Source: Thioalkalivibrio sp. AKL19
Lineage (GTDB): Bacteria; Pseudomonadota; Gammaproteobacteria; Ectothiorhodospirales; Ectothiorhodospiraceae
Assembly (NCBI RefSeq): GCF_000420165.1
Contig: NZ_ATUK01000014.1
Span: 20,001-84,000 of the forward strand
Length of the DNA: 64,000 nucleotides
Reading direction: 5' to 3'
Shown here piece after piece: positions 50,986 to 53,670 of the stretch. The notes beneath the pieces were generated by a model, which was not told the DNA's origin, searched no databases, and saw only the letters and a list, made by a program, of their open reading frames with translations. Both the position numbers and the translations under genes were made by a program. Positions within the stretch are counted from its first letter, which is position 1; each line of letters begins with the position of its first letter.

Positions 50986-52103
<1,118 letters not shown>

Positions 52104-52246
52104 CACCGGGCCACGCCACCCGCGCCTCCCTGGCGCGGGTCTCCCCGGACGACGGGTTCGGGTTACACTCCGGGCCGCAACAGGTCGGCAAGGCCGCACG
52201 GAGCGAACCCCCGCGCCACCTTGCCTAGTCGACGCGATCCGGAACC

Positions 52247-52261
52247 GGAGGTCACGCCATC
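52247..52261 (+). promoter_or_regulatory. Strong ribosome-binding site before a non-ATG mreC start
   Basis: GGAGG at 52247-52251 is followed after exactly 7 nt by ATC at 52259-52261, the position where MreC homologues begin. No ATG, GTG or TTG exists in this frame between the TAG at 52226-52228 and ATG 52337. This site decides the start proposed for mreC. Confidence 0.6.
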
Positions 52262-53182
52262 AGCAAGCCGCTGTTCAGACTGGGTGTCTCGCCCACTCTG
52301 CGCCTGCTCGCGGTCGTCCTGCTGGGACTGGCGCTGATGGCGCTGGATCATCGCGTGAACGAGCTGCAGTTTGTCCGCGGCGCCCTGGCCACGGTCACCT
52401 ACCCGCTGCAGGTCGCGGTGGACGCGCCGGTCCGCGCATTCAGCCGGGTATTCGAGTCGTTCACCAGCCGCGAGGACCTGATCACCGAGAATCGCATCCT
52501 GCGTAGCGAGAACGCCGAGCTGCGCGCCCGCCAGCTGCGCTTCGAGGCCCTGCAGCAGGAGAACGACCGCCTGCGGGCGCTCCTGAACACCGCCCAGCAG
52601 GCCGAGGAACGCGTCGAGATCGCGAAGCTGCTGGCCGTGGACTTGGATCCCTTCCGCCAGCAGATCGTGCTCAACAAGGGCCGCAATGACGACGTCTACG
52701 CCGGACAACCAGTCATCAACGCCGACGGCGTGATCGGCCAGGTCCTTTCCACCCGGCTGACCAGCTCCGTCGCGCTGCTGATCTCCGACCCCAGCCACGC
52801 CCTTCCGGTGCTCAGCGCGCGCACGGGGCTGCGGGGGCTGGTAGTTGGCACCGGCAACCCGCAACGCCTGGAGATGCGCCACGTCCCGTTGCAGGAGGAT
52901 GTGGAACCCGGCGACCTGTTGCTGACCTCCGGCCTCGGTGGCCGCTTCCCGGCGGACTACCCGGTGGCCCGCGTGACCTCGGTTGAACGACCGCAGGGTC
53001 AGCCGTTCCTGAGCATCGAGGCCGAGCCCCTCGCCGCGCTGGACCGCTCGCGCGAGGTCCTGCTGCTGTGGACGGAGGGCAGCATGCCGGGGATCATCCC
53101 CCTCGAGGCCGACGAGGCCCGGGATGTCTCGCCGGATGCGCCCGCACCGGAGCCGGCCGCAGCGCCCCCGGAAGCGCCGTGA
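52259..53182 (+). CDS. mreC: Rod shape-determining protein MreC, apparent ATC start
   Basis: Periplasmic scaffold that links MreB, MreD and the wall synthases. From ATC 52259 the product is 307 residues. The N-terminal cytoplasmic segment (SKPLFRLGVSPTLRLL) and transmembrane helix (LLAVVLLGLALMALDHR) align with MreC openings such as E. coli MKPIFSRGPS. They are followed by a coiled coil (about 75-110; LITENRILRSENAELRARQL) and the beta domain with QQIVLNKGRNDDVYAGQPVINADGVIGQV and VTSGLGGRFPADYPVA. The first conventional start, ATG 52337, lies inside this helix and would destroy most of the membrane anchor. GGAGG precedes ATC by 7 nt. Alternatives are initiation at CTG 52271 or a sequence error turning ATG into ATC. 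The C-terminal tail is Pro/Ala-rich. Overlaps mreD as GTGA. Confidence 0.88.
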   Translation: MSKPLFRLGVSPTLRLLAVVLLGLALMALDHRVNELQFVRGALATVTYPLQVAVDAPVRAFSRVFESFTSREDLITENRILRSENAELRARQLRFEALQQENDRLRALLNTAQQAEERVEIAKLLAVDLDPFRQQIVLNKGRNDDVYAGQPVINADGVIGQVLSTRLTSSVALLISDPSHALPVLSARTGLRGLVVGTGNPQRLEMRHVPLQEDVEPGDLLLTSGLGGRFPADYPVARVTSVERPQGQPFLSIEAEPLAALDRSREVLLLWTEGSMPGIIPLEADEARDVSPDAPAPEPAAAPPEAP

Positions 53183-53670
53183 CCCGCGCCATCGGCATCC
53201 CCTGGCCGGTGGCACTGACCCTGCTGGCGGCCCTGGCGCTGGCGATCGTGCCAGTCCCGGATGCCCTGCGCCCGGCGCGCCCGGAGTGGCTGACACTCGT
53301 GCTGATCTACTGGACCATGGCCTTTCCGACCCGTATCGGCGTCCTGACGGCGTTCGTCGCCGGATTGCTGCTGGACACCCTGCTGGGCCAGTTGCTGGGA
53401 CAGAACGCCATCGCCCTGGCGGTGATCATCTACATCGTGCTGCAGATCCATCCGCGGCTGCGGGTGTACCCGGTCTGGCAGCAGATGATGGTGGTCGCGA
53501 TCCTGATCGCGCTGTTCAAGCTGCTGGCCTTGTGGCCCCAGGGCATCACCGGGTTCCCGCCGGGCGACATCATGTACTGGTCGCCGGCAATCACGAGCGC
53601 GCTGCTGTGGCCGCTGATCTTTTTCCTGCTGCGCGACATGCGCCGGCGCTGGCTGTTGCACCTGACCTGA
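53179..53670 (+). CDS. mreD: Rod shape-determining protein MreD
   Basis: Integral membrane partner of MreC. The 163-residue protein starts at GTG 53179, overlapping the mreC stop as GTGA. It has about five hydrophobic helices (PVALTLLAALALAIVPVP; LVLIYWTMAFP; GVLTAFVAGLLLDTLLGQLLGQNAIALAVIIYIV in two parts; MMVVAILIALFKLLALW; and a final SALLWPLIFFLL). The conserved VAGLLLDTLLGQLLGQNA region matches the MreD family G..LLD...G...G.NAL pattern. Last gene of mreBCD; a weak hairpin follows. Confidence 0.93.
   Translation: MTRAIGIPWPVALTLLAALALAIVPVPDALRPARPEWLTLVLIYWTMAFPTRIGVLTAFVAGLLLDTLLGQLLGQNAIALAVIIYIVLQIHPRLRVYPVWQQMMVVAILIALFKLLALWPQGITGFPPGDIMYWSPAITSALLWPLIFFLLRDMRRRWLLHLT

Follow-up and report, generated by a model that had tools for sequence, protein, structure and literature searches.

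The textbook gene with an AUH (AUA, AUC or AUU) start codon is infC, which encodes IF3, begins with AUU and is autoregulated by IF3, a factor that discriminates against the AUH codons of infC. E. coli pcnB, also with an AUU start, provides an example of a limiting protein expressed from AUH. Such starts are usually regarded as curiosities of these few genes (infC, pcnB). Weak start codons (GUG, UUG) accompany strong Shine-Dalgarno (SD) sequences, and a single AUG-to-AUU switch was counted among 61,358 ancestral AUG starts, according to passages of Belinky, Rogozin and Koonin 2017 (PMC5622118). Here we describe mreC of Thioalkalivibrio sp. AKL19, located in a window of 64,000 nucleotides (the whole stretch of DNA that was analysed), for which initiation at ATC 52259 is well supported by the comparisons below. 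The gene shares a weak start and a strong SD with the compensation described in those passages; unlike the cases described there, it is one core gene that holds AUH over much of a class. AUH initiation as such is already known, and the mreC case is unusual for its breadth.

Table 1. Features of the mre locus in the window (PF, Pfam family; E, E-value).
Feature	Coordinates	Strand	Evidence and remarks
mreB, ATG start	51057..52103	+	ORF of 348 aa; PF06723, E 2.8e-142
G+C-rich hairpin in the mreB-mreC spacer	52119..52139	+	Sequence; fold of 52096-52170
In-frame TAG closing the mreC frame upstream	52226..52228	+	Sequence, ORF reading
Shine-Dalgarno GGAGG	52247..52251	+	7-nt spacer to ATC; duplex -10.2 kcal/mol; GGAGG in 29/29 readable genus loci
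Putative mreC start codon ATC	52259..52261	+	No earlier canonical in-frame codon; kept in relatives
mreC	52259..53182	+	307 aa read from ATC; PF04085, E 6.7e-40; PDB 7eft, E 3.1e-53
Sole MreC membrane helix, approx. residues 13-30 (judged by eye)	52295..52348	+	Translation, hydropathy; removed by a start at ATG 52337
ATG at residue 27, the first canonical codon in frame; unlikely start	52337..52339	+	Sequence, ORF reading
mreD, GTG start	53179..53670	+	PF04093, E 1e-22 over 53179-53667

The locus has the PF04085 core (matched by residues 126-271 when translation is read from ATC), the N-terminal membrane helix and the mreB-mreC-mreD order that identify mreC (Table 1). The first-pass annotation had claimed that the mreC frame contains no ATG, GTG or TTG between the TAG at 52226 and the ATG at 52337, and that GGAGG lies 7 nt ahead of the ATC; both claims were confirmed by the sequence and the ORF reading. 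Indeed, in all frames of 52229-52345 the only such triplets are an out-of-frame GTG (52284) and the ATG at 52337. The strong and suitably spaced SD is what is expected of AUH-initiated genes, and its predicted duplex with the anti-SD (-10.2 kcal/mol) compares with -4.8 kcal/mol ahead of ATG 52337. The further claim, that the codons from ATC onwards encode a homologous MreC N-terminus including the helix, was borne out in two ways. Residues 3-291 of the window MreC align with residues 2-289 of the PDB 7eft chain (Cell shape protein MreC), which places the ATC one codon ahead of the position of 7eft Met1. The best 19-residue Kyte-Doolittle mean was 2.03 for the protein read from ATC versus 1.06 from ATG 52337; the membrane helix, thus, requires codons upstream of this ATG, which falls near the helix end.

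We compared the start region with that of relatives of the source organism, whose genome assembly comprises 2.88 Mb in 18 contigs. The genus sample contained 30 genomes, 29 of them with an mreC match, and the family added 17 genomes; a search at the level of the order gave the same 47 genomes. Among the named matches listed, from which very near records are possibly omitted, the closest MreC relatives were those of Thioalkalivibrio sp. ALE14 and ALE31. AUH is present in every one of the 29 genus loci that could be read (28 ATC and 1 ATA), with GGAGG ahead of each, and in all 17 other family loci (16 ATC and 1 ATT), although MreC identity to the window drops to 54% across the family. That AUH is kept in 46 of 46 readable family loci while the protein diverges to this extent indicates that the codon is old and not a sequencing error. 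The latter had been offered in the first-pass annotation as the plain alternative, ATC being one base from ATG; we looked for relatives with ATG, which would leave ATC unique to this assembly, and found ATC, ATA or ATT throughout. A sequencing or assembly error hiding a true ATG can therefore be dismissed for practical purposes, and the comparison strongly supports the initiation at ATC that had been proposed. A canonical in-frame codon farther upstream, a possible alternative start, occurs in 6 of the 29 genus loci and in 3 of the 17 other family loci.

We then extended the comparison to the class. Of 321 genomes searched, 288 had mreC; 285 matches lay outside the family, 200 of these were retrieved and 198 were placed against an N-terminus profile, AUH being scored at alignment column 1 or 2. 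AUH was found in 118 of the 198 loci (47 ATC, 45 ATT and 26 ATA). In 109 of them, hereafter strict loci, no canonical in-frame codon occurs from the upstream stop to alignment column 20, and the remaining 9 have a canonical codon farther upstream. AUH is, thus, the sole start that would give the conserved N-terminus in the window and in 109 of the 198 class loci, a recurrence that is more than chance. The other loci have a canonical codon in place (54), upstream only (18) or downstream only (5), or were uncalled (3). Counted by families, of which the 198 loci represent 137, AUH occurs in 78 and other outcomes in 63, both being present in 4. A canonical triplet in some frame begins no more than 6 nt from AUH in 3 of 109 strict class loci, but the same holds for 9 of 37 strict loci of the family.

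A draw from the phylum brought in 14 additional genomes of the class, with 5 AUH, 5 ATG and 4 loci without the motif, 2 of the 5 AUH loci having a canonical codon upstream; in 26 of 26 loci from the phylum's other classes, the membrane helix is preceded by a canonical codon, as judged by eye. A named set of 80 loci, which overlaps the other samples, contained 58 AUH starts, 21 canonical starts and 1 downstream start. The combination of AUH and a strong SD is more common than any other form of mreC in the sampled gammaproteobacteria, and other lineages have AUG, GUG or UUG starts, mostly with an ordinary or weak SD. By eye, AUH genes mostly open with AUH-AAA or AUH-AAG (K), and many canonical ones open with ATG-CAA or ATG-CAG (MQ) with no evident SD (loci L137-L187 and L048-L107). 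In Legionella adelaidensis (NZ_LR134431.1, L192:371-411), the codon at the homologous place is neither AUH nor ATG; mreC is annotated from a start farther upstream that overlaps mreB at its annotated end.

The class sample also bears on whether translation could begin at a downstream canonical codon (ATG 52337 in the window, a GTG in P. aeruginosa), leaving MreC with its helix partly or wholly missing. Such a start is used by at least one annotated record, and Met27 is almost invariant in a 37-row MreC alignment. However, the helix reaches a hydropathy of at least 1.6 in 105 of 109 strict class loci when read from AUH versus 18 of 109 when read from the next canonical codon, so it would generally be lost or weakened, and the SD ahead of AUH is stronger than that ahead of the next canonical codon in 108 of the 109. 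The E. coli record, moreover, starts mreC at the homologous place, with ATG (MKPIF). We consider a downstream start highly improbable. The annotated record in question, P. aeruginosa CP123788.1 (L190:219-267), is the one annotated AUH mreC record examined; it places the start at a GTG 48 nt (16 codons) past the aligned ATC, a position inside the membrane helix that cuts it. Residue numbers for P. aeruginosa MreC in passages of PMC8137920 put the cytoplasmic part and the helix within the first 14 residues, and residue 99 counted from the late GTG is the first Asp of DDKV; the published numbering fits the late start, assuming 2 tag residues on the 164-residue crystallised chain. A gene caller that bars AUH must shift the MreC start into the membrane helix, and this is a risk for annotation.

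The E. coli gene is otherwise alike, being the same gene in the same mreB-mreC-mreD order with an N-terminus of the type KPIFSRGPS, and differs in having ATG at the homologous place behind a weak SD (-3.0 kcal/mol). The same contrast is seen between P. aeruginosa mreC (ATC, SD -6.9 kcal/mol) and the genes of Aeromonas caviae (ATG, 0.7) and Proteus mirabilis (ATG, -2.2). Among the 158 class loci with a well-aligned N-terminus, to which we limited the SD comparison, the median SD of mreC was -7.0 kcal/mol for 115 AUH loci and -2.0 kcal/mol for 34 loci with a canonical start, a difference with a Mann-Whitney p of 2e-10 before any correction for descent. Correction for descent used a weakly resolved tree of 204 MreC proteins, on which 36 changes between AUH and other mreC starts were reconstructed and pairs were counted on supported branches. 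Among 7 supported independent pairs, the SD agreed in direction with the association in a mean of 5.4 and opposed it in 0.0, with a median p of 0.0625 (range 0.031-0.219); after this correction, the association of start codon and SD is only suggestive. An SD-like 4-mer 4-9 nt before AUH was present in 148 of 164 AUH loci (named set excluded), and none was found in 13.

The neighbouring mreB served as an internal reference. Its SD was modest and did not differ between genomes with AUH mreC and those with canonical mreC (medians -3.3 and -3.2 kcal/mol), so the difference is specific to mreC; in 110 of 116 loci, the SD of AUH mreC was stronger than that of its own mreB. The SD of canonical mreC, on the other hand, was weaker than that of its own mreB in 26 of 40 loci and stronger in 14 (p 0.19, not significant), so that an equal, or a low, net output of mreC in the two groups is conjectural. 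At the position of MreB Met1, ATG is present in 60 of 62 readable loci having AUH mreC.

Is AUH itself the initiation codon? A start of this kind is consistent with the excess of ATA, which occupies the mreC start in 26 of 118 loci versus 11.2 expected from the Ile codons in the retrieved parts of the same 118 genes (p 2e-6). An altered initiator tRNA that would pair with AUC was considered: the initiator-tRNA pattern GGGCTNATAACCC occurs at two places in the source genome, one of which is a tRNA-Met with anticodon CAT, and the second, with GAT in the loop, lies in no tRNA called by ARAGORN, so that this possibility was rejected within the reach of the pattern. RNA editing could, by reasoning only, make AUA G-like, which it could not do for AUC or AUU, and leaves the set unexplained. 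Termination-reinitiation from mreB, as a general cause, was rejected too, since in 116 AUH loci the mreC start lies a median of 76 nt from the mreB stop, with no more than 30 nt between them in 19%. The AUC at 52259 would, instead, be decoded by the ordinary initiator tRNA (anticodon CAU) through a third-base mismatch, the AUH/CAU pairing lacking a Watson-Crick third base pair, and MreC would still start with formyl-methionine. The near-perfect, well-spaced SD would permit initiation, and the AUC would slow it. In a reconstituted system described in passages of PMC10158994, weak third-base pairs, AUU/CAU among them, gave very low full-length product, and IF3 lowered the products of weak third-base pairs.

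We favour, as the probable explanation, that weak mreC initiation, set jointly by start codon and SD, caps a dose-sensitive protein of the elongasome. Selection would probably act on the rate at which MreC is made from the shared mre operon, keeping it low, fixed and reliable, since MreC, an elongasome regulator that associates with itself, is sensitive to dose. According to passages of PMC7793260, E. coli cells that overexpress MreC are deformed, the MreC content is cited as about 180 copies per cell, and a balance of MreC and MreD is argued to be necessary, with the accompanying printed reviews disputing parts of the model. Passages of PMC8137920 describe self-association of P. aeruginosa MreC and suggest its accumulation past a threshold as a signal. 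The idea, raised in the first-pass annotation, that initiation is deliberately weak thus agrees with the pattern across the class and with the dose-sensitivity reported for MreC. The sequence facts, how they are conserved and the link between AUH and a strong SD are directly established; initiation at AUH, its low rate and its purpose are what we infer.

A feedback through IF3, as in infC, had also been brought up. If AUH tied mreC to the ratio of IF3 to ribosomes, wall elongation would be coupled to the translation machinery. AUH is the codon class that IF3 discriminates against in infC, and the two genes share an architecture: a search of 30 genomes across the class located infC in 29, and all 29 loci have AUH in place behind a GGAG SD. 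The effect of IF3 on weak third-base pairs in vitro (passages of PMC10158994) points in the same direction. However, infC has a canonical codon in place in 0 of 29 loci, and in 22 of them no canonical codon occurs from the upstream stop to the family match (an alternative is present in 7), whereas mreC has often abandoned AUH, with the 36 changes on the tree and canonical starts in place in 54 of 198 loci. Our own expectation for gating by IF3, that AUH is never exchanged for a canonical codon, is thus not what mreC shows. Its product, unlike that of infC, is unrelated to translation and has no evident feedback loop. That infC keeps AUH in this sample and mreC swaps it suggests that selection acts on the rate and not on a feedback through IF3, and we regard gating of mreC by IF3 as possible but less favoured and rather unlikely. 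The same low probability attaches to its broader form, in which the state of IF3 and the 30S subunit would gate MreC supply and the lateral-wall switch through AUH in most gammaproteobacteria; if true, cell shape would be coupled to translational capacity. AUH is not forced in pcnB, for which 27 of the 30 genomes searched offer a canonical codon close to the family match or ahead of it; in mreC, it is forced in 109 of 198 loci.

A simpler possibility is that AUH is tolerated, its weakness being unselected: if little MreC is needed, a poor start with a good SD would suffice. The low copy number cited in passages of PMC7793260 agrees with this, as does the lack of a significant difference in SD strength between canonical mreC and mreB. 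Yet mere tolerance should readmit GUG, UUG or AUG, and all the readable family loci have AUH. Reconstructed third-base changes, moreover, ran within A, C and T in 36.5 cases versus 6.8 to AUG, a modest contrast given the weak tree and an excess that is in large part C-T transitions. We find tolerance somewhat less likely still than gating by IF3, and retain a capped, selected rate of MreC synthesis as the preferred reading.

We found no report of a non-AUG mreC start in open-access titles and abstract openings, most subscription journals being outside this scope. With AUH starts in so large a part of a class, mreC would supply an extensive natural collection for studies of start-codon discrimination, and the start would offer a testable genetic handle on MreC dosage.

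Several minor observations concern the rest of the locus. Codons 2-15 of mreC (52262-52303) show a genus codon identity, at equal residues, of 0.66 versus a mean of 0.56 elsewhere; evidence of a special constraint on these first codons is weak, since the same value is attained by 11 of 261 equally long windows. A search of plasmid DNA using the window gave no match. No strong SD is evident ahead of the window's mreB ATG (51040-51057). The hairpin between mreB and mreC lacks a clear T run and might reduce the transcription that enters mreC. At the other end of the gene, the mreD GTG overlaps the TGA stop of mreC (53179-53182), an arrangement typical of translational coupling.
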